Shown here piece by piece: positions 16,601 to 63,000 of a stretch of 64,000 nucleotides of DNA (its first letter is position 1; every line of letters starts with the position of its first letter). Source of the DNA: Watersipora subatra (lineage: Eukaryota; Bryozoa; Gymnolaemata; Cheilostomatida; Watersiporidae). Under the pieces are notes generated by a model. The model did not search any database. It was not told the DNA's origin and was given only the letters and a program-made list of their open reading frames with translations. Where the stretch lies: positions 53,493,196 through 53,557,195 of the forward strand of contig NC_088708.1 in the NCBI RefSeq assembly GCF_963576615.1, read 5' to 3'. The translations under genes and the position numbers were made by a program.

Positions 16601-19600
16601 TTGATCGATAGATCCCTCATCAGCGCATTCAACTGCTATAGAAGCAATCCAGGTAAAAAGCTTACCTACTACAACTTCAACATTCAACTACTGGAAGTAC
16701 TGATTGGTAACTACTGCGAAGAGCGAAAACAAGTAGGCTGTTCGAGTCTTACCTTTCCCCCAGCCAAGATAAATGAAATAAACTTTCTAGATATCATTCC
16801 AAATGAAAAAAAGATGAAAGTGTGCTGCGTGTGCTAAGCCAAGACAACAGGCGCAAGGCTACAAAGGAACAAGAATAAGCACATGATGTAAAGACTGCAG
16901 TGTAGGCCTCTGCAAGGACGAATGCTTCCGAAAGTACCATAGCTAGTGAGACAGTTATATATAAAGCAACGATTGAAACATGTTTACTTGTGTTTACCTG
17001 TATTATAGAAACATAATACAAGTATACAATATTATAAATAAGAATGTATCAACCATTTTTTTTTTTTAATTGAAATTTTGGTAAATTAATTTGCCCAGGG
17101 GACTGTAATAGTCCAAAACATTTGCCTGCGAAAGGGTTAAGATACAGTGTAACTAGTTGTATATTAACTACATATAATCATCACTTTTAGGTATGAGTCA
17201 GTTGCTAAACCAGTCGTTCTGTGGCACACCTGCGCATCAAGTAAGCCATTTTTGGTATTCGCGCTAATATTTATTTTTTATCCAAAAAGTTTGCCAGCGT
17301 GATTTGTCAAGAAGTAAATTTGTTTCATGTTGGATATTCTAGGCATATCTATTTGTCCAAAGCTTTAATTTTGTTTTTGAAAACAATGATCATAACTCTC
17401 CATGCGGACAGGCGTCTCTCACCATGTTGGTGGTTTGACCAGAACTATGAACTGGTCGCTATAGTCTGCATGCTCAGTAGTTTTAGGGTCGTATCTTTGT
17501 GGCACTAATTTCCTGGTTGTTTACATGTCTGAGTTTCTAGCAGCTGATTGGTCATTATACATTAGAATTCTTCAATCAAAACCTGTTGTAGCCCACCTGG
17601 AACATCTATAGACATAAAGAAAACTTCTTATAAAAAGGTAAGAATGTTTGTGACTTTGTATCATTTTCTTTTGTAGATCTTTTTTTATTGTGCTTTTGGA
17701 GACGTTTGTAGTTTTATTGTGCATGGAGACGTTTGTAGTTTTATTGTGCATGGAGACGTTTGTAGTTTTATTGTGCTTTTGGAGACGTTTGTAATTTTAT
17801 TGTGCATGGAGACGTTTGTAGTTTTATTGTGCATGGAGATGTTTGTAGTTTTATTGTGCATGGAGACGTTTGTAGTTTTATTGTGCATGGAGACGTTTGT
17901 AGTTTTATTGTGCTTGGAGACGTTTGTAGTTTTATTGTGCATGGAGACGTTTGTAGTTTTATTGTGCTTTTGGAGACGTTTGTAGTTTTATTGTGCATGG
18001 AGATGTTTGTAGTTTTATTGTGCACGGAGACGTTTGTAGTTTTATTGTGCATGGAGACGTTTGTAGTTTTATTGTGCATGGAGACGTTTGTAGTTTTATT
18101 GTGCATGGAGACGTTTGTAGTTTTAGTGTGCATGGAGACGTTTGTAGTTTTATTGTGCATGGAGACGTTTGTAGTTTTATTGTGCATGGAGACGTTTGTA
18201 GTTTTATTGTGCATGGAGACGTTTGTAGTTTTATTGTGCATGGAGACGTTTGTAGTTTTATTGTGCATGGAGACGTTTGTAGTTTTATTGTGCATGGAGA
18301 CGTTTGTAGTTTTATTGTGCATGGAGACGTTTGTAGTTTTATTGTGCATGGAGACGTTTGTAGTTTTATTGTGCATGGAGACGTTTGTAGTTTTATTGTG
18401 CATGGAGACGTTTGTAGTTTTATTGTGCATGGAGATGTTTGTAGTTTTATTAGTTTGTAGAGACGTTTGTAGTTTTAAAATTTCATTTTTTCGTTTGTAG
18501 TTTTATTAGTTTGTAGAGACGTTTGTAGTTTTAAAATTTCATTTTTTCGTTTGTAGTTTATTAGTTTGTAGAGACGTTTGTAGTTTTATTTCATTTTAAA
18601 AGATGTGTTTAGACCAGTTTATGTTCCTATGCATTTGTATGCATATCTTTTGTATACATATATACCCTAAAACCTCTATTTGAGTGCTACCTGTATTTGA
18701 ATGCCACCTCTAATAGATCGCTAATACAATTTTGGTCAAAAATTGTTTAATTTCAATATACTGTATGTACATTTTTATATTATTTTGGAAAAATCTGAGC
18801 AGGTATTTTTCTTTTAGTAGCTCAAACATGCACACCGAAGCGAGAAGCATACATATTTTAACCAATTGCTACTAAAGATTGCCAGGTGTACCAAGTATGT
18901 ACACAATTATTCTATAGTATGGCAAGGTTGCTGCGTGGTTTATTGGTAGGGCCCTTTTCTGCAAAACTTGAGTTTGCACATTCAAATCCAGTGCAAAGTG
19001 GTTTTTCCATTCCTATAACTTTATCGCTATAACTGTACATATGGATGACAGACCAACAAACAAACACGGATATTTATATATGTAGATTAATGTTCCATAA
19101 TCTTTCTCCGCTTGGCTTTGTTTATTGTAATTTATCTGCCATGGTCTCTTCGCTTACCTTTAGTTATTGTATATCTTCATATATGCCCGTGTTTGATTCC
19201 CAATTTTTATCATTCTACCTACACACAATGCTTGTATATCCATTTCTCTAGCTCCTGCCTTTCCTATTAGAGATGAAGAAGGAGGGTCTGCTTGATGTAA
19301 AAGAGACAGCAAAGGGAGTTCATAGCGTGACAGAGATAAACGTCAGCCATAACGAGTATGTTTCGCTGTGGTCTGGTGTGCTCCTAGCTTGTCCATGCCT
19401 AAATTCTTGGATCCTCTCCATATGCTACTCTGAGTTCAAAACCTCAACTCGTTTTACCATAGATAAACTTTGAAAACTGGCAGATATTTTAGGAACTAAT
19501 AAGCTTTTCCAAGTCATCTCTAAGCGTACATTGATGAAATGGTTAAGTTTCTTATTGATTTAGTCATTATTCATAGTTTAAAACATGTACATTTCCTTTG

Positions 19601-22600
19601 ATAGGGTGCAGGAATTTAGACCCTGGAAGCTGCCTCTGGTAGAGGAAGCCAAGCCAGACTCTAGTCAGGAGTACGTATATTCTCCACCTGAGATTATCGA
19701 GCTACTAGCAGTCAATGCACAGACACTGCCTCTTTTCTCTCGCCTCGGTATGAGGTACTGACTTTCTTACGTTCTTCTTTAGAATTACACAAGTCTCAAA
19801 ACTAACAATTAAAGGTTGACTTGCAACAAAATTCACATTACAGTTATTTGGTATCAAAAGATTTGCCATGTCTTACTCTGTTGTGTTGTAGGTGCCAAAT
19901 ATGTGGAAATGTGATTACTAGCTCTTAAAAGCTCAAAAACGAAAAGCCGCCGTAGATTGAAATCTCTTGATTTCGATGACGTATCCACGGATTTTAGTTA
20001 TTGTCTTGTCACGTGATGTTCTCGCGTGAATTGAAAGGCCAATAAAAAGCTTAATATAAAACCTATCGTAGCAAAAGATGAGAAACACTTCGGGTTTTAC
20101 CTAAGACCCCGTATCAAATATAGATGCTCGCTACTTTACAGTTTCAGCTTGGCCATTCCGTTTGACAATTCAACATACGTGTACATGTCTGAGTTGCGAT
20201 CAAAAAAAATGTCAAATTCTGAAGAGTTAAGACCCTGGCGTTTCGAGCCTGACGCTCTATCTGAAGAAGATCCTCAACAGCATCAAACCTCCCAGCAAGT
20301 AAGCACCGCCACTAGCCAGCTCTTATGTGCCAAGCTAGCTAGTAGTAATAGTTTTAGCTAGAGAGTGATAGAACGAATATTATTATATATATATATGATT
20401 TTAAGGATGATAATTATCACTTCATATTGCGGAAAAATAATTACAGAATTTTCTCGAATGACAACATTAACAATTTTAATATTTAAATCTAGTGCTGCAC
20501 TGATATACTGTTGGATAACATCGACCTGATGTATTAGCTATGGTTGCATAGACATATCTGTTCATTTCTTTAGGAGCTAATACCACCGGCTACAGAGTGG
20601 TGTGTCTGCAAGCGCTGTCAAGACATACCATCTCTTCCTGAATGTTTGTGTTGCCATGATGCTGAGTTTGCACATCGTCTCCATGACCGCGGGGAGCATG
20701 AATGCCTGTGTATGCATCTTGGTGTGGACGAACTTGTGACGCCTGCACCCCTTGAGTTGGGGTGGAATAATTACCTGCGATATCATAGTGAGTTGGATTT
20801 TCATTCAATGCCAACAACACCAAAGCTATGCTAATGTGTCAAGCATTATCTACAATTCTTTTGTTACACATTTAAAGCATAGGTTGAACACACATATTTT
20901 GAACTCGTGGAACACAAGGAGAACTGTTATATTTGGCTTGTACACTTACTACAGTAGAGAGTGTATTAGTTTTATGATTTTATTATATAAAGATCGAGAT
21001 TATTTTGATGATCAGCAATTATTGTTTTTCAATAATTGTTTTGGTAGATAATCTATTCCCATTTGGAGAGCCATCGCCAAATGCTCGGAAAAGGTTGTGT
21101 GCATACCGCAATCTTGTGTTTTGGTTTATGCCGCAAATCTTGTTTGCAAGTCTGCAAACTCTTCTTCATCATCCGTTGGTGGGAAAAGTGCACGAATCTT
21201 AGACACCAAGCAAGCAGGTAGAGGCCGTCGCTCACCGAGACGAATTTGCGGCATAAGCCAAAACACAAGGTTGCGGTATGCACACAACCTTTGTAACAAC
21301 ATCCGTTGTAATGGACCTCACTCTCAGGCCATGGAAAATTAGATCGGACTGGCATCGCTTGAAGCCTTCCAGCTCCATGGCGTTAGAGCTGGTGGTCTCC
21401 ATTGACTGCAAAGTAAAGAAAGTTCCGACCAACAATCAGTTTCACATTATTTGAATGAATTATTTAGCTAGATCAGTAACTTCATGTTCATGTATTGATA
21501 ACTACTGAAAAATTTGGGTTTTTGTCAGGCTTTGAAGCAAAAACTGTCAAAGTTTTACCTTGACAAGATGGCTGCTGACTATTAAACCGCAGCTCTGATC
21601 CATCATAGTGTAGGCCTCGTATAGTGCGCAATGCCCCGAACTATCGCATCTACCGTCACCTGCCAAATCAAGCTCCCAATCGATTGCTGCCATCAATCCC
21701 TTGTTATGCAGGGTGTACTGCTCAGCAATACACTGTAAAATATTGTAAAACTTCATTATACAAGATTAATTTGTATCATTATCATTAGTCTAAGAATGTA
21801 GAATCCTCTTCCCCCTTTTTGTGCTATATTATGATGAAGAATCAGAATTTTAAATTATAATATATTTCGCTTGAAGGATGACATATTTTCATTTCAAGAA
21901 AAAATTGTTTCTAAATGTCGTTATTCAATTAGTGTGCCAAGCTTTTACTCACATTTTCCAAGTTTATGGGTAAATATTAACACTTACACCATGTAAGTAT
22001 TCTCGTTGTTGGTAGAGGCAAACGCTGTGGCTTGGTATTGCGATGTTCAGGAGCGACAGAAAACGGAGGTTCTGCGTAAGGCATCCGCCAGAAAAGAGTG
22101 ATGCAGCTGCCAGCAGGGGGTTGATGACGTGAGCTCTGTTCACCCTGGCAGTTGTTTCCCAAGTGTACGATCGGTGACAGGAGGCACATGTAACCTTGAA
22201 CTCTACCCATCCGCCTTCTCGCACCATCGTGAATGAGCAGGGGGCGCAGGCGTGACAGTGAAATAGTCGCTGGAGTGCTGTCACACTTACTATTATTTTC
22301 TCCTCTTTGAAGGAGGATTCGCCTCTGAAATCACAACACAATAGCTGACTTGCTATAAGATTTGTACAACATCATTTCCTGTTATTATATCATATTTGCT
22401 TGATCAGAAAAAGAATAAATATATAGCCATACAATCATGACACAGATTTTACAAAACCTTATCAGAATCCATGATATTGTAAACATAAAAATGTGAGTAA
22501 TAACTCTATGGATATTCTTTATATTTTGTCAAGTTTGGTTAAGTTCAGCTCTATCTTACATGTAATTGGAGAGCGTTTGACGCTGGCCATCATAGCGCTC

Positions 22601-25600
22601 AAACTCTTCCCAGTCTTCGGTGGTTGGCACAAACTCTTCATCATCTAATACTAAAAATAATCATCTAATAATATTAATATGCTATTAACGATGATACCAG
22701 AAAATGACAATGACTATTTTATATAACATCTATAAGTGAATAGGGTTAAGAAATTTGGCGAAATTAATCGTGAAACATAACATTATTTTATTAATTATAG
22801 ATTAATATATTACGTTTTACAGATAAATATGCAGTATGAATTAGTTTTGTTATTATAATAAGAATAATACACGTAATTAAAAAGATAAAATACTAGTAAT
22901 ATCATATTAAAATTAAATGACATTAATATTGTAATATTAAATATAGATTAATACAGTAGTATTAGGAGAATACTAGAAAATAATCCTAGTTACTACTACT
23001 AATACAAGTAGTTCATAAAATAAATTACGTGCTTTGGTGACATGTGGAGTATGCAAACCGGTTAGAAAACATGTCGTTTTTGAAATGGCGAAAACAAAGG
23101 TAAAAGTAAGCAGGCAAATATATAAAGTTTGTCACATCCAGCTTTACCCAGTTGTTCCACACCCGGTGAAGGTCTGATCTTCTCTCTGCTCTTGGCCAAG
23201 AAAAAAGGTGCTTCTCACCTTGGCAGCTGCACAAACACGGTGTGACGCGTTAGACATGACGAATTGAAATTAACAAGTTTAATACGAGAAAGCGTGTCTG
23301 CTATTTGCGATAGATCAAACTTGAACTGAAACTAACATTATCTGATCATGTGACTTACAATTCCCGCCATATGGCGCGAACAATTTCTACACATTTTTCG
23401 ACCATCACAGCGGACCAAAAGGCTCATCATGTTTATCAGAGGATGATATGCAATCGTTCAAGCTAAGATTAAAAAATTAAACATATTTTTATGGTAAGTT
23501 TTTGAGATATCAGTGCTCAAAGTTGCAGCATTACGATGCCGATAAAATAGACGCGTAAGAACAATAGACATGGTTTTTATTGCAAGCGTGAAGTATATTT
23601 GTAAAAATATTTCGACGAATAAGGTTGCATAAAAGTGTAAACAGAAACCATCTCGCACAACTACGTCACATTTTAGCCGTTTTGGAAAATGAATCCAAAC
23701 TACGGCAGTCTTGTGTGGCTGCGATTTTCTGTTCGTTTTTTAGCTTTTAAGTGCTTGTAATCACATTTCCACATATTTGGCACCTACACCACAACAGAGT
23801 AAGGCATGCTGAATCTTTTGATACCAAATAACTGTAATGTGAATTTTGTTGCAAGTCAACCTTTAAGATTTGAACTTAATGTTTCATAGATTAACTTGAT
23901 TAGCTAGTTTATATACTTAACACAGTGTAATTTCAGAATATAAATTTATGGTCTTTGACATCTATCTTAAAAATTTGGAATGGTTCATAGACAGAGAGAT
24001 GGAAGCTGCAATTTTATTATAACTAGCTGTAATACCCGGTTTGCCCGGGTAATAGAAAAGTCTTTGGACAGAATATTGGTTTGTATTTAACATATAACAA
24101 CATTTGCCATTCTAACTTTCAAACTACATATCATGAGAAAAGTGTTTTGTCTTATAAACAATGAGAACTAGTGAGAGTTGCTCGCTATTAGCCTGCGCGC
24201 TATCAGCCAGTACTTTTAATAATGTGAGCAATGTGAGCAAACAGCTTGTCGTGATGTTATGCTATGATGCAAAGCCGTTAGGTATTTTCTCTCATATAAT
24301 AACTTATATTGACAAGCTAGCAATTCAATCTCTGTAGTCTAGTGGGTAGGGGGTCGGACTGGTGAATGGTGGGGTCCGAGATCAAATCTTTTTCGGTACG
24401 GAATCTTTATTCCAAGATTTTAAGATCTATAGCTGGACAATCAAACCTACGCATACACATACGACCAACTTTGAGAAATATAGATACTGGAGCATTTTGT
24501 TTTTCCTGTAAGACTGGTTCATACTATATCATCATAGTATGTCGGCATTGTCCTCTCGGCAATAATTTGTTAACTAAATGCGCCCTAAAACGATGGCATT
24601 GTCGAACCAATGCAGATACGCCGGGAAAGACTGCAGCTGTCAAATTTACCTGATAGTTCGCTAAGCATCCATGATAGCTTGTGCACTGCGCATCGCTGCG
24701 ACGATGGTGATTAGCTGTCGCGGGTTGCTTGATCTACATGTATATTTTCCTTCATGACAGTTTCTTCGTAATAGGAGATAATTAGACTTGTTTTGCTTAT
24801 CCTGCAGTGTTAATATAGGTTATGAAAACACTTCTTTTTATAATTTCCTTTTATTATTTCTGTAACTTTTGTTCGTGCACAAAATATTTTTAGCTTCATT
24901 TCCTTTTTATGCTTTGTTACTGTTGTACTGTCACACACGCTGTTAATGTTTACTTTTTCGCTATATCAATGTACATGTTTATTCAGTAAGGGAGACACGC
25001 TCAGTCAGTCAGAGATGAGAGCTTTAATAACAGGCTATGTGAAGGAGAAGGCTTTGCTGCACCCAGAGAATAAACAGTGAGTTTTCCATGCCCCTAACTG
25101 ATTAATGTTCGGCCACCATTTCAACTGTTTTCTGTCTTTACAATTTTAAGTTTCTTTGGTTATGACACATTTTGGTCTGTGAAGCTCTACCGTCTGCTGC
25201 CTAGGTTGGTGACGCTGGACGAGGTGCTGACAACGGCAGTTGTTACTAAAAAGGATGGATTTGTTGAGTACCTAAAATGGAATATTCTATTTGAACGGTA
25301 GGTTGTTATAGTATTCATTAATTAACAATTCCCCATTACATATTTTACTTTTAAACTGACATATCAGGTAGAATATTGCAAACTTAATATGGCGGTTGTT
25401 AATACATTGTAACTATTCCTGCTGCCACGTGTCATAAGTGGCCATTGCAGGCAGCTCGGCTATGGGAAAATTGATCAGTCTATGTTCTCCGTAGCAATTG
25501 GGCTTTTCATAGGTTTTGCTAAAAGCGCACAGCTACACGCTTGTGCAGAGCATAGACAGCAAACATACACTAAATAACGCAAAGTAAAAGGTGTCTTTTT

Positions 25601-46700: not shown

Positions 46701-49700
46701 AAGAAATAAAACTAGGATATGGAAGGATTTATGGCACTTTTTATGTATACATGTGCAACGAGAGAAAAACTCAATAAAAAATGATTTCAAATAATTTGTG
46801 CATCTGACAAACCTTCTGCAGGGTCTGTTTAGCCTCCTTTAGACGATCACTTTTGAAGTAGGCCCTGGCCAGATACAGCAGTACATCTGTGTTGTCGTAC
46901 TTGTAGAACTTCTTTAAGCAATTCTCGTACTGTAGCAATGAAGCATGAGCAAGGTAAGACAATCTACAATATGTCTTTCCTTAACGATATTGCAACTACA
47001 TGGAAGGAAACAACGCTGCCACTCACCATGGTCACGGCAGCGATGTACTGTTTCTGCTCCACGTAGATATGGGCAATGTTCAACCAGACGTCTGAGAAAT
47101 CAGCAGTCGCTTCTCGAACCTGAGCAAAGACATCTCTACCTTCATTAAGTAGACTTTTGTGGGCCAGTATGCAGCCTGAAACCAAAAGGATCGGCTGTTT
47201 ATACATCAATTGCTTATGTTATCGGTTAAGAAAACATCTAGAACAGAAATATAATGTTGAACAATCGACGCAATAAAAGGTGATTATGCCGTTATCTTGA
47301 TAAGTTTACCATTTGTAGGCACAATTTGTAATTATTATCAATCTAAGCACTGTCTAGAGTTGGGCTCGCAGAGGATACTCTCAGACGTACCGATGCCATT
47401 AGCAGCCCAAATATTACGGTTGTCATTTCTGAGCACCTGCTTGTACATAGAGAGTGCTCTGTCTTGGTGCCTCTTCTCTTTGTCTTTATCCTTAATACCT
47501 GCGTGCAGTGTCTGGAGCCAAACATTGCCAAGAGCTGCAGAAGACATAAAAGAGGTGTGACGGAGTCACTGCTTTCACTGCTGGCAGAAGAGAACTCCAT
47601 CATGAACGTGCGTTAAACCACAAAGACATGTCCCATAATAAAAATATAGGTACATTATTAACAGGCATAGGAATTTTCAGCATGTTTGCTATTTTGTGAC
47701 ATAGCCAGAAAAACCAAAGAGATGATGTGTCGCCAAAACATCCTGCTTTGACAAATTTGTACAAATCGAAGAAAGTGCTAGGATCACTAGCGCACTGGCG
47801 CAGAAACAGATCCTGATTCCTACCAATCAATGAGTATGGATCATCTTTGGTGGTCGGACGAGAGAGGATTCGCTCAAACTTCTTCTGACCAGGTCCCCAT
47901 TCCTGCTTGGCAAGATGGAGGTTGCCAATGAGTGACCATGCATCTGGGTGGTCTTGGTTGATCTGTAGGGCTTCTTTGAACCAATCAGAAGCCTCATAAA
48001 TCTGTCCACGGTCTCGTGCCATGCATCCAAGCCTGAGATAGCCTAATGAAGTACATATCAAACATGTCAAAACAAAATTGGCTATTTCATCTAAAACATG
48101 GAAGTATGGGCAGCAAAGATTTACATATGTAATTAAAGCACATAAATTACATAATTTTCTTTATTGTATATTTCAATAGATCAGAGTCTTGGCTTTCGAA
48201 TGAGCTATTGTTTGCCATGGTGAGACAGACATTGGTTGGTGTTTATAGGATTTCCCCAGAGCTCTACCGCGAAAAAGTTTACTGGCATAGTCTCGAAAAT
48301 TGTGACATCACAATTCTCATATTCGTTGTTGTGTGCTCTTACCGCTTATTTATCAACTACGAAAGTGACGATAATGACGCTAGTGGCAGGCGAAGGTGGC
48401 AGAACGAATGAAGATGACAAAGGAATCAGTGCCATCAGTTCTCCATGTACATATTATTTCTATGATAAGTACTTCAGACTCCAAGAACCATACTATATTT
48501 TCCCGATGATATTATGCACTAGCTCTTTATTTTTAATGCGATGTTAAGGGTGACGACTGAGACTAATTAATTTCAAGCATTGCATGATCTCGGCGAAAGT
48601 GCGATTGACATTTAGTCCTAGGGCCACGCCACCGCAGGTCATAATTTAATCGATGTGATTTCATTACCTTTATCAATGACAGTACATTTATTGAAGCATA
48701 ATTAATTAACCTAGAACATGTGTTTGTATTGGTCAGGCGTTAGCACGATCGCGGGCATTGTTGATTATCTAGAATCTTAGTTTATTATTAGCGCTCTCCG
48801 GGTTTAACAGCACCGATTGTCAAAGAAAAATGCAGCCTCAATGGCAACGAAAGGGATCGATGACCTAAGGCTAAATGAGAATTATGACGCCACATTTTGA
48901 GTACCTGAACTAAGTGTTTTTTTTTCAGGATGTACTTTTGACACCCCATTTTTCATAGTTCTATTATTCTTTGTGTATTGAATATAGGCTCATTCGAAAG
49001 CCAAGACTCTGATGTATTGAAATATATAATAAAAAAATGACGTAATTTATGTGCTTTAAGCCATAAATAATACGATTAGTCTTAGCGGTTAGCGAACGAT
49101 AGTTCTAATCGATTAGCGATTAAAAAAAGAAAAACACAAAAAGTAGTAAAAAGCAGTAAAAGAATTTAAAAAATCATAAAAAACACAAAACAAGCAAAGG
49201 AGCATACAGAAAGTAATGAGTAAACGAGAGACGGCACTGAGTATTAGAGCTTCATAATTTAATTGTTTGCTGGCGATGTTGAAGGTAGACGATTTGAATA
49301 TCACCACCATTTAGAGAGATATTGCCAATCGTATAAATGATATAATTAGGTAATGGCGATTTATCTCGCACCTGACTAGTTTTAGCTGGAACTAATATGC
49401 ATGAGTCTTCTGGTCTTAGAATACGCTCAATTAAGGGCCTCCATACACACATTCCGAGTACATTCATGAAATACATTTTTATAATAATCATGAACACAAA
49501 ACAGTTTCTTTTTAAGTTGAAATATACAAATTACTAGTAACATAAACTTACAAGTTTTTTCACGCAATAATATACCCTACATAAATGATTTGCGATATAT
49601 CAGGATTTAATATTGCAAATTTGCAATAACAAATCATCTGATTTTTGGAAATTGCGAAGATCTACTAAGTATAAGATATATTTAGAGTGACAAACAATGG

Positions 49701-52700
49701 ACATGAGCTGACCACTCACAGTCCACGTAATTCGGGTGCTCCTTGAGAATATTCTTGTACAGTTTTTCAGCACGGTTATCCTCATTCCTAGCCTCATAGA
49801 GCCGTGCGAGGTTGTAGGTGGTCGTTACAGAAATAGCACTATAGTAGTGTTCATCATGCTCGCTCTCCCTCTTGGACCTCTCTAATGAAGCCTCGTAGTA
49901 TTTCTGTTAAATGAGAACAACTCCTGTCATGATAGTAGAAGACTGAGGAGGTGAAACAAAGCTAACTTGGACTAACATGAGCAAGTATAACAGACGAATG
50001 AGAGTAAAAGTTCCTACCTGTGCATCACTGAGATTACCAAGACGGAAGTGGAGCGCGGCGACATTGTTGAGAATTTCGGGAGGGACATCAGCTTCAACTT
50101 TCTCTCTTAGAATACTTGTTGCCTTGCCGTATGCAGTCAGTGCTCCCTGGTAAGACAGCAAAACTAATAAACTTAGTGCTTCTACTGTTGTGAGTCATTC
50201 AGCGAGAAGATAACATATTGTAGTCATATGAAATGATCAGCCACCAGCTTCTGACCTGCACATCATTTGACTCCAGAATCTGAGCGAGTTCTATCCAAGC
50301 CTCCACATCATCAGGGTACTGGTCAGTCACCTTGCGGAGGTGTTGCTACGATGACAAATAAGAATCTCAGGTTCCAGAAACAGTTGCATCCTCAATATAT
50401 CTATTTACTTAGTTATACACCTACATAACTACAAACCTCTAACTGCACTTGAACACAAGAATTCTCACCTTGGCTAAGTCTCGTTTTTCCGGCTCGGGCA
50501 AAGTAGCATAGAGAGATCCTAATATCTTCATTGTCTCGTAATTGGTAGGCTGCGCTTTTAAAACTTTCTCAAAGCACTGCGATGCCTGCAAGCCAACAGA
50601 TTAATAGTGTTCAGAGCGTAAATACGCATGATGTTTCCATGACGCGGATGATGCGAACTTGGAGTTGAGTTACCATTGCAGTTAAGCTACCGCGTGATAT
50701 GTATTTTAATGGACATTCACATTATATATAGCTGTACATTTTTCTATCTTACCAAATGGCAGGTAAAATATAAAAACAATGAGAAAACAAGCAAATTTTC
50801 ATACATGAAGAGAGCTCTATGTCATCACTCTACATCACAACAAATAAACCTATATTATCAAATTGACATAAAAGTAACATACATTGCTGGTGTCATTCCT
50901 ATGAATATACATCTGCCCGAGACCATAGTAGGGCAAAACAAAATTGGCTGAAGCGAACTGAGTCGACTGATAGTAATATTGGAAGGCCTGGTCGTAGTCA
51001 TTTTGTACGTGAAATGCCCGGGCCAGCTGATAGCAGCTCTCCGCTCTCATCGACTCATTCTCTGTGTTGTGAAATGCATGCAGTGCCAAGTGCTGTACCT
51101 TCTGGTAGTCCTGCCACAAATAACATAAACGTATGCATGAATCATCAGCGCTTCTTAACCTAGCCTGTCTTGACAATCTGTTGTTTTTGTGGAGTTGTTC
51201 CCCCGTCGAGTGGGCGACCAACACAACAGCTTGTCACAAGACGTACTGCACCTGATGCATCAGCTGCACTGACAGGGAGTTGTTCTCTTCCGTCTATGCG
51301 GCTTGGCTGCGATGTTATGGCGGTCGCTCCCTTGGTAATCATAACGGATTTCGCGCAAAAATTTATGAAAAAAAAAGATTGCAAGGTTTAACCAGAGATC
51401 AGTTTCTGCTTTAAACGTTAGTAAAATTTAAGAATAAAATAAATTGAAAATAAAACTCATAAGAACAAATAAACTGACTGATACAAAAATAGAAATAAAA
51501 CTGACTGAGCGCACAAATAACGACATGTTTAGTTGCTGGTGTTGCCTAAGTTCTCAAGTTCTACTAAAGTTTACCGCAGAGACTGGTCGCTGGTTAAATG
51601 TTGTAATCTTATTTTTTCTACATAAGTTTTTGCGCAAAATTCGTTATGATTACCAATGGAGCGACCGACATAACATCGCAACCAAGCCGCATAGACGGAA
51701 GACAACAACTCCCTATAAGTGCAGCTGATGCATCAGGTGCAGCACGTCTTGTGACAAGCTGTTGTGTTGCTCGCCCGATCAACGGGGGAACAACTCCACA
51801 AAACAACAGTTTGTCAAGACAGGCTATTCTTAACCCTCCAGCTAATCTCACTAATAGTGTGCAAAGGGAAGGCAATTCCTAGAAGTGAGTCAGAGATTTA
51901 CTCTGGTTTAGATTTATTATTTAGAATCGGAGGTTTACAATGTCTAGCATAGTGTGATTACATCACCGATCTTTGTATCCAAGTATACCATTAAAGATGT
52001 GGTTGCATCAAAAAATTCAATTTAATGAAATTAAGACCCATAAAAGGCTAAAACATCAGCTACAATTTGATGCCATTTTTGTCTTTGTAGACCAACCCTG
52101 TCCAGAGATATATGCGTTTGAATGAAGCCCTCTTTTAAAAAGCTCACGTTCCAGTGGGTGCTTCTTTCGTGACGTCACAAGCAAGATATCTGAAACGAAA
52201 CCACGAGCGATAAATATGAGGTCGCTTCGTTAGCCAATCATGAGCGCGAAATTTTTATATTGGCCGTAATAAATGTTATCACTCGTAAAACGCGTTGTCT
52301 GTGATCTCGAAGATTCTCATCGTTAGAGAATTCATTCTCATTCGTTAGAGAATTCTCATCGTTACTGATTCAACACGTTTCAACAATTACTAAGTTATAC
52401 ATAGTTTTAAAATGGCTTCAAGTTCGAGCGACTGCGACTCAGAGTTATCTGAGCAACTTTTAGTAAAAGATTGGAGTAGACAGCCTATAGTCAAAGCTGA
52501 CAGGCGTCAGCAGCGTTTTGCTGCAGAGGAAGACAGAATGGAGGTAAATTAACTTAGAGTCTTCTATACTTAAGTAAATGTAATATTTTTATAGTCATAA
52601 ATACATATACTAATTAATAAAATGATAATTCTTTGCTATCTCCAATCATCGTTTCATAGCTTATCTGCCGTTTTACCTAGCTTTAATATTTTTTTCCAAT

Positions 52701-55700
52701 TTTCTTTGGTAAATTAGTCATGATTACAAATTATTTTCACTCGTAGGAAGTGGGTAAAATCGAGTGATCATTGCAAATTTTTAATTTCCAGAATCAAAGC
52801 TTCAAATCATTGGCTTGGCGTACTTGTGCCTTTATTAAATGTTTATTCGTTTTTAAAATTACACTCGCAATCTATTTAACTCCCAATTTGGAAGCTGTCA
52901 ATAGATACGCTTTAGAATGACATATCTATGAATGACATATATTTATTGCATTTGTTTTACTGATTGCAGAATGTTTATGTCGTCCCACCAGCCGAAGAAG
53001 CTTTGTCAGTGTGGAAACTGCCATAAAGGGGAAAGAGAGATTTGAATGTGTGCTGCATAAGCCATGATGTTTTATTTGAGTTTGTTGCAGTAGATGAATT
53101 TGTCTTATTGTATCAGCTAATACTATGTGAGTGGCCACGACTTGATGAATATTTTTAATAAAAGCTTAATGCCGAGATGAAAATATTTTTGCTTGTAAAA
53201 ATTATATAATAAAATAATATTGTTGAAGATAATGCAAAACATGATTTGCAGAATATTGTAGTGAATTGGATATGGTATATGGATGTCCGCAGAACTGGAG
53301 AATGTGAGTTCAAATCCAGTTTGCAGCAGACTTCTCATCCTTAAAACTATATCCCTATCTATATTCTTTTCAAAGACGTGGCTTGCTTATTTCACTTCGG
53401 TAGTATTTGGTAAGAATACTACTAGTAAGAAACTAGTACGTAGACGGTGTAGGCAATGATATACAGCCCCGCCCCAAGGATAGGCGACAGACATAATGTG
53501 GGCGGGGCTTATGGGAGGCTGTATATCGTTAGTATGGGTAGCTGCAGAACTGTGCTGATACAAAGACCTCGTTCTACATAGTTGGCTTGACAGAATTACC
53601 GTAGACCGGTAGAATTGGTAGTCGGTACCCAAATGTTTACACAACATTTGGAGAAAGTGAGTAGAACAAATTTTCAATTTTTGTTATTTGAGGCCTTTGA
53701 AACATTCATAATAATGCATCTGTAGCAGGATTTAAAATTTTATTCTAGCCAACATGAGCAAATACAAAATAAAATATATGCCAATAGAGCCGCGTAAGAC
53801 TAGACTTTTATCACAAATAGCCGATGTGAATACGAGAGATAGAGACAGGTTGCCTAACGCGTGACATCATTTTGGGCAAGTCTGGGCACGTTTTTGTGGC
53901 CTGAGCGTTTTTACGGCGATCAGATTTTTTTCGGTTTTAATCTTCAAATATCTTGGCAATGTGATCGCGTAACACAACAAACAACATATCAACTGATAGA
54001 GAAAAAAATGCTTTCTTTTAAGATCAACTCAAATTTGACGCAACCACATCTTTAATGTAGAAAACTTCTACTCGCACACAAAGAGTATGATGAAACGATG
54101 TATAAAACTTCTCACCACTGTCACTATCCAGTTCTTACAACAAGCGTACTTGGCAGCCACAAAAACAGTCAATTGTCCTTACTTTGTATTAGTACATGTA
54201 TGACGCCACTTACATTAACCATATAATGACATTTGAATGTTCCTTGATAATATTACTACAGTACCCCCTCGGGTTACGATGTCCATGTTATATGAGTTTT
54301 CGCCGTAAGATGTGGAACTTGATGTATTTTCGTCCCCGCCGTACGACATTTTTTCCGCCATACAATATCACCAAGATTTTTTTCGAAATTAAAATATAGG
54401 CAGTCGGTGAGCTGAAAAAGTTAAAATAATGAAGACGCCTAATATATGCTATTCACCAAAATTCCTCTCACAACATTTTAAAGATACACGATACAAGATA
54501 TCTCTCTTTCCCTCTCTCTGACAAAATTGAAGTTTAATGAAATACATACTAAAATTTAGCTTTATGTATGTGTTTAGTAAGCTAAATTCATGAAAATGAA
54601 ATTCAACATTTATGTTATGCGTCTTTTTGAAGGTAAGAACTCCCTACATACTATACGTACTGCACATAGTACATTGTAATGTTACATGATGCCGGTAATG
54701 TTGCATATTATTGTAGATCATAACCGCTAAATACACTAAAATTACCATAGGTAACTATAGTTACTAAGGTTAACTAATGATCACTTTTGTTACTACTTTT
54801 CAATATGTTCAGTATGTATATAAAATTTTGATGATTTTTACCAGGGGTTGTTTGCATTAGACAACTGCTATGGGTTTCCATACTTCTCTATAGGGCAATT
54901 TCGGGTTACGATGCCAACACTGGAACAAATTAAAATCGTATAGGGGGGGGGGGGTGGGGGGGGGGTTGCACTGTAGTCTTAACAATTAAGCATTGCTATC
55001 AATGATCCAATGTTTCCTTAAATATCATAGTTACCCTAGGACACTTATATTTCGCTAGTATTTAGTTTCGTGAATAGCATACAGAGTAAAATTTCGCTGC
55101 AACTTAATTTCGCAGCTCTGATGAGTGCGAAAATATAGTGATGTGAAAACAAATGCAATGGAACAAACATAATTAAATTCCTCAAGTTCGGTTCACTAGT
55201 AAGAAAAAAATGTTCAATTTGGGACTAGTTTGTAATTGTGAACCGCAGGTAGAATTGTGTGGCCGAGATCGATAATGAAATTTGATCGCTTGCTGCCATT
55301 TGTTTCTTGGACTATCAATGAGCAAAGCTATTTAATTCCGCGTTTTCACTCGTTCTTATGATAGTTTAGTTTCGCTCATGAAATTTTCACGAGAGGATGA
55401 CTCCACGAAAACGCTAAAGTTAGACGAGGCAAATGCATAAGTGTCCTAGGGTATATCAGGTTGTCATATTTTCTAATGAGTACCACACTTATAATTACTA
55501 ATACCCTGGCAAGCTGGTGTGCTGTTAGAGAGATCGTTAGGTGTGCCCATAAAGCACAGCAAATCCCTATTTGCCCAATTAGTTGGAACCAGTAATCGAT
55601 TGGAACAGGTGTTAGAATGTTAACCGCCAAGGCAAAAGTAACTTTGAATCCGATATGATTCAATTGTTTCCCAACCACTGACAGTGGCTTCAGAGAGATG

Positions 55701-58336
55701 GACGAACATGACTTTTATCATAATAAAAAAGATTGATATTTGTATTGGTCTATATCTACTGTATTATTAGAATCATTTTTTCAACATTGGACATTCAAAG
55801 TATTTTGAAGCATTGCAGTATCAGAAGTTTAAAGCTTATAAAAATTGAAGATGAAGCATCAAAGATTTCAAAACAGCAAAAATATACAAGCTAAGTAATA
55901 AATTTCACTAAGTCTATGTTCAAGTAAGGCATGCCACGAATAGCAATCATCTCTACCTCGGAAACTACTCATCGCCCTAACGAACAATAAAAACTTTGTT
56001 TATAAATGATGCAGATTTTAACTTTATTTACCTACAATTGAGTTTTGTACATTTATCTCTTCACATAGTTTTATATAATTACATAACGTATTGTTGTAAT
56101 GTGTAATTACCTTAAGAAATTTCAAAAAATTATTTTTAGTTTTTCGGGGTGTAGAAAAAATTAGAGTATTCTTATGGGAATAGTTGAACCATTCGACAAT
56201 TTTAACAAAAGAAGCAGATTTCAGAACAAACGATTTTCATATGTACTGGTTTGAATGTTTCCATACATCTACATGTACACTCAATCAGATCTTTTTATGG
56301 TTGCATATATAATCCGACAGACGGCAGCTCCTAGATCGACTCAAGCAGAGAAGATAGTTCTAGACTTTAAATATTTAAGGAAAAAAATGGAGAAAGGTGA
56401 ATTTGGAGCCATTACATGAAGGTTCAACAAACCTTTTTATAGAAGAAGTGGTTAGCAAGATGGTTGAGAACCATAGGATTGGCAGAGTCTATTGTGTAGG
56501 CTTTGGAGAGCAGCTGCACACCATTCTTTATAGAGTCTTGAGTCTTATTATTCAGCTCCATTATCGAGCAGCCAACCAAAGCCCCGACACACTGTGGGTC
56601 CAAGTCTAAGGCTCGATCAAATGCATGCCTAAAATGTCGAAAATACTTTTCACCTATGCATGCTATATATAATAATTTATTAACTGAAGATAGAATTTTT
56701 GATAAATCAAAATCAGAGGTATCTCCAGCTATTGATGTGTATTTAGATGTATTTGGCAATCTTGTGATCACATGCTGTGTTGTCTATCTGATACACACAA
56801 AATCATAGCAAACCTGGCTTTTTCTGGTTTATTCAATTTAAGAAAGCAATGACCCATCCCAAGACGAACTGATGCAGGGCAGTTAGGGTTGGTTCTTAAT
56901 GCCTTCTTGTAGTAGGCCAACGCGCCTCTGTAGTCCTTCTTATTAAATGCTATGCATGCCTTCCCAAGCAGGGATGGAATGTTGCTAGGAGATTGGCCAA
57001 GCACGAAATTGAACTGGGCATCTGCTTGCTCCATTTTGTCTCCTTCCAGTAAACAGAAGTAGGCTCTACCCAGCAAATGATTCTGTAAAAAAACATATGC
57101 AAACAAATGTGCAGTGATTACTATTACAATCAGTGTATGGACAAAAAAGGATCTCACGATTCCTGCCAAAATATCATACCTATTTGGAAACTATTAGAGA
57201 ATACCATGGCTGATTTAACAAAATAATTTGTTAAAATAGCAACAAGGGTGCATTACTTACAATTTCAATCCATATGACATTTGAAAATGCTGAAAAATTT
57301 GTTTCAAGCCAGACTTATGCAAAAAACACCATTAGAAGATCTTTCGCTTCCATATCATTGATATGCCCAGCTATCGGTTGTTGTATAAAATACGGGACAT
57401 GCGGATGGTACACACACAATATATCCACAGCACCGCAATTCGGCGGCATTACAAATTCTCCTAGAGCATGACTAAGAGCATAGAGTACATATTAATTATT
57501 TCACTAATTTCAAAATGTAATGCAAATTTAGCTAGAGCTGTTTATTTGGTGCAACCTAAGACCATATAATCTTGCTCCCAATGGTCTGACTATAGGCGTG
57601 CTTCACGTTGCTATCGACAAGTATTTTAGTGTGCAACTGGCATTGGTGACGCAAATAGAAAATCATTAGCTAATAGTGATCTAACCTGATCATACATGAT
57701 GATCTTGTCGGCGGTTGTATAGAGAAGAGTGGCCCGAGTAAACAGCTCTCTCTTACGGTCTTTGTTTTTTTCAGCATGCGCTTTTTGTACATAATATGCA
57801 GCGAGCGTGTCCAAGGCCTTCATCTGATCTTTTTCATAGTCAGCATAGCTATAATTGGCATCTTGTCTGGAGGATTCTAAAATCTTTTCAAAATCATCTT
57901 CATTTCCTTGTTTGTAGTATTCGATCTGAAAAAAAATGCAAGATAAGAACATTCAAGTAAAAATTTCACTTGAACATTTTCCCATGTGTATGTCTGATTT
58001 TGCGTTAATAAACCGAGTTGCCTACCGCCAGTGTAACCCAAACATTCAAAGGGCAGCCCTCCTGCTTCAAAATCGTCAAAACTTCCTCTCCATCTGGAAG
58101 CGTTTCGAGATCTAATTCGATCACCTGCAATCAAAAAGTGCCACATACTACGTATTATATAAGAAAAAACAAAATACACAAGTTGTGCTCTAAAAATGCA
58201 CCACAAGTATTCCCGTGTGCACCACAAGCAGTGCTTGCTTCCTGACCAAACATGTTTACAGTAAACCAAGTTGGGATACAGCTCTTACCTCATCTGTGTC
58301 TCTTAATGGAATCTCAATCGTACCGCTCGATGTCAT
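40775..58336 (-). CDS. CTR9: RNA polymerase-associated protein CTR9 (Paf1 complex), complete, 21 coding exons
   Basis: Role (family): nuclear TPR scaffold of the Paf1 complex, which travels with RNA polymerase II and supports H2B ubiquitination and H3K4/K36 methylation. Exons from the start: 58336-58289, 58124-58026, 57925-57686, 57082-56814, 56628-56433, 51110-50883, 50585-50469, 50345-50256, 50146-50018, 49903-49720, 48042-47824, 47534-47391, 47175-47027, 46929-46813, 46523-46378, 45580-45373, 45278-45147, 42144-42029, 41944-41741, 41316-41248, 41039-40775. Phases agree throughout; total 3369 nt, 1122 residues (human 1173). Start [19 protein letters not shown] arrays span about residues 30-790 ([68 protein letters not shown]). 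A charged coiled coil follows at about 790-905 ([11 protein letters not shown]), then a Lys/Ser/Asp/Glu-rich tail. The last exon has three 10-residue repeats (SEGSKKAG(S)). Intron 5 (51111-56432) and intron 17 (42145-45146) are large and transposon-filled. Confidence 0.96.
44105..44136. repeat. 13-bp stem hairpin
   Basis: CCGACGTTGATTC (44105-44117) pairs exactly with GAATCAACGTCGG (44124-44136) around a 6 nt loop. It is adjacent to the larger hairpin at 44150-44267. Confidence 0.9.
44150..44267. repeat. Long hairpin, about 52-bp arms
   Basis: The arm 44150-44201 (ACGGGCTAGCCGGGTCACGC, then a diverging base or two, then GGATTTTCGCCACGC and ACATACAAAAC) is the near-exact reverse complement of 44216-44267, with a loop of about 14 nt. 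It is much more GC-rich than its surroundings. ACTATTCATC motifs flank it, with an inverted counterpart GATGAATAGT near 44028, so a still larger foldback exists. Confidence 0.93.
48137..49055. mobile_element. 919-bp TTAA-flanked MITE
   Basis: TTAA at 48133-48136 and 49056-49059. The inverted ends are about 75-80 bp: AGCACATAAATTAC, then TATTTCAATAGATCAGAGTC, then TTGGCTTTCGAATGAGC, all repeated as reverse complement at 48980-49055. The interior has no transposase; the open frames at 48208-48547 show no domain. It lies in CTR9 intron 10. Confidence 0.85.
51161..51825. repeat. Large inverted repeat (about 210-bp arms) with an open frame in each arm
   Basis: The left arm 51161-51372 starts TAGCCTGTCTTGACAATCTG; the right arm (about 51615-51825) is its reverse complement with scattered differences, and about 240 bp lie between. 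Each arm has an open frame running outward (51384 to 51160 on minus; 51646 onward on plus) with shared text [19 protein letters not shown] and [12 protein letters not shown] occurs just outside each arm (51155 and 51830). Probably a foldback transposon. It lies in CTR9 intron 5. Confidence 0.88.
52412..53158 (+). pseudogene. Frameshifted P2X7-ballast-domain gene of a TTAA element
   Basis: Exon 1 (52412-52543) encodes 44 residues starting [15 protein letters not shown], preceded by an A-rich context and ending at GAG before GTAAAT. Exon 2 starts at 52970 after TTGCAG. It reads first [11 protein letters not shown], then in a second frame [13 protein letters not shown], then in a third frame [20 protein letters not shown] and [17 protein letters not shown] to a stop at 53158. 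The combined CQCGNC...CC and following hydrophobic segment is the cysteine signature of the P2X7 cytoplasmic domain. Two frameshifts make it a pseudogene. The C-terminal AYR segment was not found. Confidence 0.62.
53458..53527. repeat. Inverted repeat with GC-rich core
   Basis: GATATACAGCC (53458-53468) pairs with GGCTGTATATC (53517-53527), and inside it CCCCGCCCC faces GGGCGGGGC. The GC-rich core stands out from the AT-rich surroundings. It lies inside the 51995-54051 element. Confidence 0.8.
54259..54973. mobile_element. 715-bp TA-flanked MITE with a poly-G end
   Basis: TA at 54257-54258 and 54974-54975. Left end CAGTACCCCCTCGGGTTACG; the right end in reverse starts CAGTGCAACCCCC and later contains GCATCGTAACCCGAA, matching the left end's GGGTTACGATG. 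The right end has runs of 12 and 10 G split by one T (54943-54965). It lies in CTR9 intron 5. The small plus-strand open frame at its left end is repeat-derived. Confidence 0.78.
55034..55451. mobile_element. 418-bp TA-flanked MITE
   Basis: TA at 55032-55033 and 55452-55453 flanks CCCTAGGACACTTAT and its exact reverse complement ATAAGTGTCCTAGGG. Further in, TTTCGTG-type motifs are also inverted. No coding capacity. It lies only about 60 bp from the MITE at 54259-54973. Confidence 0.88.
55490..55720 (+). repeat. Dispersed core shared with the 10.6-kb and 28.6-kb elements
   Basis: Contains GAGAGATCGTTAGGTGTGCC, CAGGTGTTAGAATGTTAACC and a CCAACCACTGACAGTGGCT stretch. Diverged versions lie at 28900-29110 (GAGAGATCGTCAGGTGTG, GCAGGTGTTAGAACATCTGT) and 11820-12000. 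It may be a SINE-like module carried by those elements or inserted independently. Confidence 0.6.
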
Positions 58337-60057
58337 GTTCAACGTAGCCGCCGGTCACTACGGTGAATATTTGATTAAATAGTACTACTTTGTATATCTA
58401 TTACATGAACAAGGCAATTTATTCGGCGCATTACAATCGCCATTATACATGCATCCGGTTAAATGCCCGAGTTCCAAAATATTGATCGCCCGCTCCAGCG
58501 TGTAAATGTAATTACCAAAAGGCTAAAACAAGTCGTGTGCGTAGTTTGAAATGGCCAAGCATAGCTGTTTTTGCCCTGTTTTTACCCTGTACTAAGCATT
58601 ATGACTTCGTACATATGCCTACGGAACATCAATTTCGCTTTCTCCTTTCACAAACTTAAATCGACACAAATTCAATTATTACGTATAAGCTAAATAAATT
58701 CAGCAATTAAAGGTTTCTATAACATTATTTAAAAATAAAGTGATCAAATACTAGTGTCATTGAAAACCATTTTTAACAACAGGATAACACCTTTATTCTA
58801 AAAAGCCATGTCATTTGTAGCAAGCGTATAAAAAGGAGGCTAGACTTACATTTAAGTGGAAATGGCCTGCTGTAATTAAAATAGACTAGCTACAATGTAC
58901 AGATAATACAGGAGCTGTTATTCAAGGAAACTCATGTGAAACTATAAGTACTTGGTTACGCACTTACCAATACTGATAATGCTGGTAGTAGAATTTGACC
59001 TTCCCGATTTGCTCATTCATGTTGTAGCTGACAACATGCAACAAGATATTGTACGAGCTTGCATACACCCACCCCCCATACACCCAAGCTTCAACAACAA
59101 ACTGTATCAGGTTAAACAACACAATAAGAGCCTGTCATTCTCAAAAATTGTTGTATAGAGATATCAGTGACTCTAGATATCACAAGAATATAACATGTAT
59201 AGCATGATTCTTCCAAAAACACACATAACATTTCTGGGGGAGATGCCGGGTAAGTACATTTTCCACTTAACGATGTGATGAGCATGATAGCACTACAACT
59301 TGGAAAACTAGGACGTACTGAATGACCACCAAAATAAAGATAGCGTTTGATCATATAGAGCTGTGGAATTGCACTACAGATTTACATGGAGCCAAATAAT
59401 GACAGTAGTATATGTATATAAGAACAGGTGATAAATGTTGACTGCATGTGCATAAAATATATTGGAAGAAGCGAACACTGATTTCTAAAGCAAAGCTTAC
59501 TAGTAGAGATTCCTCTGAAGCAGATCTAACTACATGGAAGGTATAAAAGATCATCAACTACACATAACAAGCCTCTTCACAATACACTTATAGATTTTTT
59601 AAAGAAGGTTAACAGGGAGAGAAATGCACATCAAAATGCAAAGAAAAACACTAACAAAAAATATGCTTACAGGAAAGTCAAACCTGTGCTGACAATTCAG
59701 AACTACTTATTACTTCTATGGAACAAATCTATAAATTAAAATAATAATTATAACGCAACAAATACCTAAAGAAATAGTGCTGCAAAATCTAGCCTAATAG
59801 AACAGAGCGTATGCTATTTCAGATAGGTAACGCAAAAATATTGTAAAACAAATCCAGCGGAAATTTCAATTGCAAAATAAAACGATCTTGTCAATTTGGC
59901 AAATGAAAGCCAGTACATTCCACAAAAATATTGACATTTTGAAATAGATACCATTCTGTGAAAAATCATTGCGAGATGAAAGCAGAAATAAATGTTTCAA
60001 TTTTGGATCTAATATTGGCAATGATGCTTCAAACAATGATCAAACACTTCACGGAGT
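58337..60057. other. Gap between CTR9 start and zinc-finger gene stop
   Basis: About 1.7 kb. Both neighbours are on the minus strand, so it should hold the zinc-finger gene's 3' UTR and then the CTR9 promoter and 5' UTR. A minus-strand AATAAA (TTTATT at 58792-58797) is one candidate end for the zinc-finger transcript, but several AT-rich alternatives exist. No coding exon or repeat recognised. Confidence 0.5.
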
Positions 60058-63000
60058 TCAATCAGATGATCCTACAATACTGCCGACGTCATATGTTTTT
60101 TTAATAATGTCCCAATGTCTTTTCATGTGCTTGTCAAGCTCAGCCTTCTGCAGGGTCTCATATCCACACTGGCAGCATCGAAGGGTTATCAAGGGTTTTC
60201 CCTTCTTATCAACAGCCTTAGATGTATCAGCTAGCAGATCATTGAAGGAGTAGGAGAAATCCGAGTCATTCGCATGGCGCCACATGTGTGACTTGAGTGA
60301 GGGCATGTGATGACAAACATAGCCACAGAGGTTGCATTTGTATTGCTCGAGGGGCTGCTGAATGTACCGCTTGTCATTTATGTGTCGCTTTAGATGAGAT
60401 TTGAGGCTACAAGTTAAACAAATAGTTACAAACCACCTCATTTCAGCTATCAGGAAAACCACATTTACTCTTTTTATACCTTGTTATATACTTCTGATAA
60501 TGCAACATGACTAAAATATCTACATACACAAGTTGAATTCAAAATCTGCCTCAAGGTAGTTTTACTAAAACAAAGCGTGACTAACAATAATACCCCCTTG
60601 TGATAAACAAAATAACTAACAAACAACAGATGGAAAAAATTCCGGCTCCTAAAGTACATGTTCTTATGAGTTGGGACCAGCAAAGGGACTAACCAGGTCT
60701 GCGACTTTATAGAGAAATAAAGCTTACGGTCAAATACATAGTCCCACATCTTTGTATGCAATTTCAATAAATGTTGTTAGCGGTTAGTAAGAGGTCGTAT
60801 TGATAGTGTAAAGCGAGTACAATAGAGGTAAAATGAGAGGTTTTGTGAAGTGCTATAACTAACACCAACCATGTAGCAACCAAGCTATAAAACTTCCTAG
60901 CAGCAGAAATGGATGTGCAATCTTTCATCAATAGCATTCTCACATAACATATTGGTTATAGAGTTTTCAATAAAACTGGAATACATTTTTCCTACGTTTT
61001 CACTGACTCTATTTATAACAAAGTTTTTACTTTCAGCTGCCTTTTTAAAACAATAACGCACGACAAGCCATTTTAAAAAAAAAGGAAACCCCAAACATTC
61101 ATATCAGATACCAAACTGTCAAAATTGATGTCTTGCAAACAATGAGCTATTAACTGTATATTACTATAACAAGGTGTGAATTTACCTTATGGTAGTTTTA
61201 ACAGTTTTGAATGATAATAAGTCGACTTATAGCAAAATAAAAAGATTAAGAGTGATTTGTAAAACTGAAAGTTCAAAGAAGATTATGAATTTCAAGAGAA
61301 GTGATTTCAAACAAGGCAAGAGAAGCATTTTGAGAAATAACCATTTTTACCAAAGTTGCTAAAGACTGTTACTTAATACCTGTTACTTACAAAAATATCA
61401 CAAGGAACCATGTTGCACGTTTCATTGTGGGTTTTCTATAGCCTAGTTAGTTACAAAGGGAAAAAGCGTATTATTGATAAAAAAATTAAAAAGAATGCAA
61501 ATATGAAAAATTATCATCAGCAACCAGATTTAAATAATCCACAAAAATAACGAAGATCTAGAATTAAACTAGAGCCGAACTCAGCCCAATATTTGGTCAT
61601 AGCTGTTGTAAAATATCTCAGTTTGTGACGTATTTTTTTTCACTCAGAAGTCATTCTCAAAAACATCCAGCCGCAACCAAAAACATTAAGCATTGCTAAA
61701 TACAAGTAAATTTTCCTGTTGCTAACTGCAGTGTCTGCAGCAGCATTTACTTATGTAAAGTCAAAAATAAATTTTTGGATGAGCTATGATGGATATTGTC
61801 TGCAGGCACCTTGTAAATGATATACCTATTTATGCTACATTTGAAATAAAACCTTTTCATTTTCGTCTAATATGCTTGAATAATATTTTCATTTATAATA
61901 AAAACTTGCTGAAAAACAATGCAATAGCAATGACAGCTAAAATATTAAAAAATGAACTAACTAACCTGCGAATGCTCAAAGCCACAAACTCGCATTGATC
62001 ACATTTCAGTGTCCTTGAGGTAGGATCAGAGGCTTTCATGCTAGATGGTTGCGATGCTGTCATAAGGTTAGTCTTGTATAGTTTCTTCACTTCCATACAA
62101 GATTCCTGTGAAACGTGTAATATCAACTGATCTAGTCATTTTCACATGTGTGCAGCATTCCATTGCAATAAAAGGAGACTAAAATAAAATACATGTTTCA
62201 AAAATGCATGTAAATGTCAGTGCAAAAATCTTGACATATACATTTTCCACAATCATTAATAAACTAACAACTAGGTAATAATATCATCTGTGAATTACGG
62301 AATCTTCCGTCATGAATTTTTGTGATGTAGGGGAATTGCTTCAGCCAGCAATGTTAGGCCACGACGAACAAAGACTAGTCATCACGGAAGCAAGCAATTA
62401 GCTAGTCAGGTCACCAGGAACAAAAAAAAGTCGGAATAGGGGAGGAGACAAGTCTAATTTCAAAATTACCAACTGATTTATATATGCTACTAGCAGTAAG
62501 CCTGATAAGACTCAGGACATCTTTCATTTTCAAAAGCGGACGACGCTAAGAAGACCGAACCGAGCCCCAACACAGCAGAAGGCTTGACCCTCAATAGAAC
62601 TACCGAGTCGGCCCTGCTATCGAGGGGCACGGCTTACTGCATCGAAGAGACCATATAAGGAGGCGCCCAAACCAACGCGAGGCAAAGATTCACTGGCGGT
62701 CTCTTGCATGCAATGTCTTGTAAGCACATGCATTGAGTTGTAAATGTTTTATATATAGATTTATCAAAGATATGTTTTAGTCGTTGGACTTGGGTAGTTT
62801 TAATTCTTGCGGAGCAGTGGAGGAACACATCAGTTTTCTTAACAATATATAACGCCAACATTCATCAGCTATCAACAAAGGTTTTTTCCAAGCACCAACT
62901 TGTAAAGCTAGCGCTTCATACGATATTTCACAAAGAGTCCAGCAGCAAAACATCCTATAATGCTAAAGCTGACACACGAATACACTCAAACTACCTACAT

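Follow-up and report, generated by a model that had tools for sequence, protein, structure and literature searches.

As described in the accessible text of Kojima and Bao (2022; PMC9587614), Kolobok DNA transposons of the Kol0 group encode, in addition to a transposase, the protein KolX, the fold of which corresponds to that of the cytoplasmic ballast domain of P2X7. P2X7 is inferred there to have originated when KolX became joined to a P2X4-like gene, nanor is considered probably another domesticated KolX, and Kolobok termini are given as 5'-RR...YY-3', unlike those of piggyBac. Scattered ballast proteins were described by Rump et al. (2020; PMC7016195), in the accessible text of which the word transposon is absent. 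Herein, we analyse a 64,000-nucleotide stretch of the bryozoan Watersipora subatra genome (NC_088708.1, positions 53,493,196 to 53,557,195; the window), in which an element of 4050 bp (19813-23862) contains a KolX gene and a transposase fragment; we consider it probable that this element is a rearranged, non-autonomous Kolobok DNA transposon of the Kol0 group.

An earlier interpretation made from the letters of the window (the sequence-only reading) had proposed that in this lineage the ballast domain is transposon cargo. This proposal does not agree with the published record; because KolX is published as a gene of Kol0 elements (PMC9587614, accessible text), it is an accessory gene and not cargo. 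The ballast fold of KolX, as well as the suggestion of the sequence-only reading that the P2X7 tail came from a mobile element, is likewise already in print in that source. What is added by the present analysis is a new family, its hairpin, and possible steps leading to that hairpin.

In common with Kol0 elements (the Kolobok-1_XT group, as presented in the accessible text of PMC9587614), the window family has TTAA duplications, 5'-RR ends, and the combination of a transposase with a ballast-domain gene. It differs from them as described there in that KolX exon 3 contains a hairpin, KolX is without its last part, and the transposase stops past its second catalytic-type aspartate (D2). With the P2X7 ballast domain (Pfam PF20478, P2RX7_C), KolX shares the cysteine pattern and an AYR...W motif; in contrast to P2X7, KolX is without the channel part, and in the window product the C-terminal segment is missing along with one of the seven aligned cysteines. 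Xenopus Kolobok families and T2 miniature inverted-repeat transposable elements (PMC6004289) are also alike with respect to TTAA targets, AG-starting ends, a THAP- and DDE-type transposase (in the window element a truncated one, with a THAP-like stretch that scores below its cut-off), and the existence of non-autonomous derivatives. However, KolX is unmentioned in the accessible text of that paper, whereas the window family retains broken pieces of both genes.

A recently spread transposon family with TTAA target sites

The element is bounded by TTAA target-site duplications at 19809-19812 (left) and 23863-23866 (right), inside which lie terminal inverted repeats at 19813-19946 (plus strand, starting 5'-AGG) and 23729-23862 (minus strand). 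Counting the TTAA, these paired ends (19809-19946 and 23729-23866) extend over 138 nt at 93% identity, which bears out the TTAA flanks and long inverted ends noticed in the sequence-only reading. The 4-bp TTAA duplication is as the Kolobok superfamily requires, and the termini of the window element and most copies (AGG...CCT) conform to the 5'-RR...YY-3' pattern.

The whole element was searched against the W. subatra genome (784 Mb, 239 contigs), with 37 places scored from 7882 candidates; these 37 places, window included, each have a match longer than 2.7 kb, and all were examined. Thirty further copies align with the window element from end to end at 92-95% identity and with the same borders. 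Among the 31 copies reaching both ends (window included), TTAA is found on both sides in 28, TTAT on both sides in one, and an imperfect duplication in two. One full copy (L021) has inserted at a TTAA of a second copy of the family, which is internally deleted and 85-87% identical to the window element; the target lies in the stretch that corresponds to the left terminal inverted repeat. Once the flanks of L021 are joined, the alignment passes straight through the end of the host element with a single TTAA, as in a clean empty site. On the grounds of these copies and target-site duplications, the element is real and chance is excluded.

When the 32 copies exceeding 3.5 kb are grouped at 2%, 25 belong to one cluster and 7 are singletons with their nearest relative 3.9-5.1% away; the family has therefore spread recently, although its transposase is truncated. 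Copies are more numerous still, as all 150 places scored (from 912 candidates) with the displaced KolX piece described below as a genome query match it.

All 37 copies carry the KolX exons, so the possibility that other copies would lack the ballast gene is not borne out. Neither is there a sign that KolX is a separate insertion with ends of its own. The element was scanned for such ends by comparing 16 end bases between those of its 30 TTAA sites that are separated by over 300 bases, with at least 11 matching bases needed; two pairs were returned, namely one within the terminal repeats (14/16) and 22923/23477 (11/16, with KolX outside). Of the TTAA-bounded pairs, only the terminal repeats themselves thus enclose KolX, and a nested insertion was rejected. 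Together with a second TTAA family of the same layout (see below), these results uphold the assignment of the ballast gene to a Kolobok-type transposon.

A ballast gene split between the two strands

The two genes of the element converge tail to tail, with KolX on the plus strand and the transposase fragment on the minus strand. As proposed in the sequence-only reading, the plus-strand exons at 20209-20298, 20574-20787, and 21048-21202 can be joined in phase through GT-AG introns to yield WCVCKRC...CLCC...AYRNLVFW. Exon 2 holds the WCVCKRC...CLCC segment; of seven cysteines in register with those of P2X7, six belong to this exon (judged by eye, with the P2X7 positions taken from the alignment to the second family). 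Compared with hairpin-free copies, exon 3 in its present form encodes AYRNLVFWFMPQI, followed by an unrelated tail and a stop. A displaced C-terminal ballast piece (AYRNLVFW...LPACLVSKIRALFP) lies opposite at 21126-21317 on the minus strand.

Similarity to the P2X7-type ballast domain, which the sequence-only reading had recognised, is thus present in two parts. In the profile comparison proposed at that time, the joined plus-strand exons match P2RX7_C over profile positions 65-157 (E 6.4e-4, 20.1 bits), and the minus-strand piece matches positions 146-186 (E 3e-4, 21.2 bits), both below the cut-off of 23.5 bits. The two pieces overlap in a 49-nt inverted repeat encoding AYRNLVFW on either strand. 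With six cysteines on the plus-strand product and the seventh (LPAC) on the minus strand, as counted by eye, that product falls short of the seven typical of P2RX7_C. Because KolX is split between strands in this manner, the window copy encodes no complete ballast protein, contrary to what had been read there. By our reading, 21 of the 37 copies have an intact KolX frame as far as its present stop, together with its start and splice sites. The window family is not among the 70 matches listed in a PF20478 search of the whole genome, and a PDB search with the window KolX returned no P2X7 chain, with six weak, unrelated matches (best E 0.47).

A second TTAA family with the same layout

The best 30 of the 70 genomic PF20478 matches, which include near-identical duplicates, represent one repeat family distinct from that of the window and with a single-exon KolX. 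The domain scores 55.4 bits in one of its members (L041), and a composite query for this family aligned with P2X7 chains (E 7.1e-6). The left end lies at a TTAA in all 18 copies checked. One member (L068) is a TTAA-to-TTAA unit of about 3.4 kb with 20-nt ends (19/20 matching), having KolX on one strand and a THAP domain (42.1 bits) on the other. A convergent partner exon was detected at 28 of the 30 loci and at neither L040 nor L049; 6 of these 28 matches cover only 49-50 of 88 residues, and 3 are in two pieces. No Pfam family was matched by this C-terminal partner piece; its position opposite KolX, the THAP strand in L068, and a motif that we take to be that of a transposase suggest that it may be part of one. 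Structure prediction for the KolX of this family was uninformative (mean predicted local distance difference test score, 37).

The transposase remnant

For the minus-strand transposase of the sequence-only reading, the GDGR-D and zinc-ribbon-like segments were recovered, while the THAP segment was recovered only in degenerate form. The exon with GDGRCD (D1) lies at 21562-21735, and the exon with SITTDV, the aspartate of which we take to be D2, at 21298-21405. From there the frame enters the hairpin and stops at 21232, past D2. The zinc-ribbon-like exon (21991-22323) scores 22.8 bits against the "Mutator" profile PF20700, below its cut-off of 26.5. The THAP-like stretch (23025-23249) scores 14.8 bits against PF05485 (cut-off 23.9), and in the window copy the nearest ATG lies in a different reading frame from it; its CxxH motif reads CFRQ in young copies and CFRH in older ones. 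A complete DDE core, with C/DxxH and a third acidic residue, is absent from the window element, and Kolobok membership is for this reason by descent only. Identity as a Mutator element was rejected, given the sub-threshold PF20700 score and duplications of only 4 bp; Mutator elements produce long target duplications.

The C-terminal piece of the second family found no match in any of the 37 copies, a search that could miss a diverged version. PF20700 matched 116 places in the genome, some of them in long frames that stay open for as many as 686 aa, and the first 30 of these 116 are all separated by over 10 kb from any hairpin-free KolX and any listed D1 place. A query comprising D1 and D2 gave 299 genome matches, 150 of which were listed and used for all D1 comparisons herein.

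As a separate observation, a relative (L069, G000:C11:22732700-22734000) has no intron, of about 150 nt, separating the D1 exon from the D2 exon, although the adjacent intron is retained, and is the only gapless span of both exons among those 150 matches. Partial intron loss through RNA is possible, as is intron gain in the other copies.

The hairpin in KolX exon 3 and its possible origin

The internal inverted repeat comprises a left arm at 21090-21138 (plus strand, 49 nt) and a right arm at 21244-21292 (minus strand), separated by a 105-nt loop. In all 37 copies, the inverted 3' part of KolX adjoins the D2 exon of the transposase, so that a small hairpin remains and the last part of KolX is missing from the gene. 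An invertible switch, with flipping of the loop, was rejected, as one orientation is seen in 37/37 copies; because of this shared orientation, the split arrangement was probably already in the founder of these copies.

The whole genome was queried for hairpin-free forms with exon 3 of L069, which includes what seems to be the genuine C-terminus, and the best 150 of 1244 candidates were scored. Half of these (75) span the query without a hairpin, with a stop inside in 11. In 32 of the 75, an inverted partial copy is present on the other strand within 1500 bp. Counting two partial forms, there are 34 pairs, of which 33 are arranged C-end to C-end; the gap measures 420-439 bases in 15 pairs and 260-279 bases in 12. 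For the other 43 hairpin-free matches, the scored set contains no inverted copy; in 28 of them a further sequence (L070) then follows, compared to none of the 32 with an inverted copy. Since the L070 search scored the best 40 of 110 candidates, and since L069, which has an inverted copy, continues into the first 364 bases of L070, this separation is less clean than the counts imply. L070-type places are mostly beside KolX without a hairpin, and the L070 frame matched neither a Pfam family nor the C-terminal piece of the second family. Among the matches listed, a D1 place accompanies 11 of the 56 inverted partial copies at a distance of no more than 1.5 kb. Separately, a region at about 46-54 Mb of one contig (G000:C2) holds a cluster of 24 L070-type places, out of the 40 scored, as if through regional duplication and not scattered transposition.

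The occurrence of hairpin-free KolX and of inverted partial copies suggests a route to the hairpin. KolX without an inverted copy would have come first, followed by an inverted duplication of the KolX 3' end beside the transposase, and then by deletion down to the small hairpin of the window. We thus infer the hairpin to be the remnant of an inverted duplication that is larger in relatives. Hairpin RNA from the Mu killer locus of maize silences its transposon. By analogy, the KolX 3' inverted duplication might have been amplified because its hairpin RNA silences intact relatives; we hold this to be highly improbable, but were it the case, the derivative would restrain the very transposon lineage to which it belongs by means of an RNA of its own making.

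Mobilisation of the derivative and competing interpretations

Amino-acid and silent changes were compared among 11 old copies and among young copies (15 cells in all, with copy L035 in neither set). For KolX in the old copies, there are 59 amino-acid and 26 silent changes (expected ratio 2.67, relative ratio 0.85, p 0.47). Relative ratios for the same copies are 1.0 in the D1 exon (25 to 9) and 1.01 in the zinc-ribbon exon (43 to 17), with a lower value in the D2 exon (14 to 12, ratio 0.47, p 0.08). The one outlier among the 15 cells concerns young copies, in which the D1 exon has 13 amino-acid changes and no silent ones (p 0.027, uncorrected). There is no clear depletion of amino-acid changes, and copies look near neutral after insertion. 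Recent spread in spite of a truncated transposase points to help in trans. A related Kolobok transposase would thus move the copies by recognising their 134-bp ends; in intact relatives, KolX would serve as a zinc-binding accessory protein of transposition.

Several points weigh against a rearranged, non-autonomous Kol0-group transposon. The proposed Kol0 assignment draws on KolX, TTAA, and the ends, as opposed to a transposase tree, and all window pieces score below the curated Pfam cut-offs. Genome searches yielded neither a full-length transposase of the window family nor a helper. Only 10 of the 150 listed D1 places have a scored inverted copy within 1.5 kb, and none of the 150 is closer than 10 kb to any of the 40 L070-type places that were scored; the presumed starting form is therefore not tied to the window transposase. 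In the 630 bases downstream of one L070-type place, no recognised transposase was found. L070-type KolX copies may lack the window transposase or carry a more diverged one.

The element could instead be autonomous, with the truncated minus-strand protein and short KolX being functional and the hairpin a normal feature. Its many copies, 21 of which by our reading keep KolX open to its present stop with start and splice sites in place, would suit this explanation, which we nevertheless judge very unlikely in view of the stop past D2, the C-terminal piece unmatched in all 37 copies, the degenerate THAP zinc motif, the neutral-looking substitutions, and the occurrence of hairpin-free KolX elsewhere in the genome. 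Truncated P-element proteins can act as repressors, and the truncated transposase might by analogy be kept as a DNA-binding repressor of an autonomous element; the D1 and zinc-ribbon exons are indeed open in the window, as is D1 in most matches listed. However, amino-acid changes are not depleted in either exon among the old copies (the lower D2 value notwithstanding), and the THAP motif is degenerate, making such a role extremely improbable. That the KolX of the two families is only distantly similar (hhalign E 5e-4, probability 31%) might point to a host gene captured once by the window family and unrelated to ancestral KolX. This is decidedly unlikely, since the second TTAA family has the same convergent KolX/THAP layout, with its partner exon at 28/30 ballast loci, and since KolX is reported for Kol0 elements across diverse animals in the accessible text of PMC9587614.

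Implications and neighbouring features

The W. subatra genome lends independent support to the published placement of P2X7-type ballast domains in Kolobok transposons, in that the best 30 of the 70 PF20478 matches all represent one repeat family, with a left end at TTAA in 18/18 copies checked and a convergent partner exon at 28/30 loci. Before scattered invertebrate "ballast" genes are assigned a role in the host, they should be examined for transposon ends. The hairpin-free, inverted-duplicate, and hairpin forms also suggest a route of decay from a two-gene transposon to a prolific derivative.

Elsewhere in the window, a minisatellite-like repeat at 17766-18502 is open in several frames (FIVHGDVCS... 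on the plus strand). At 47603-60483, minus-strand exons resemble, by eye, those of a CTR9-like tetratricopeptide-repeat protein and of a zinc-finger gene.

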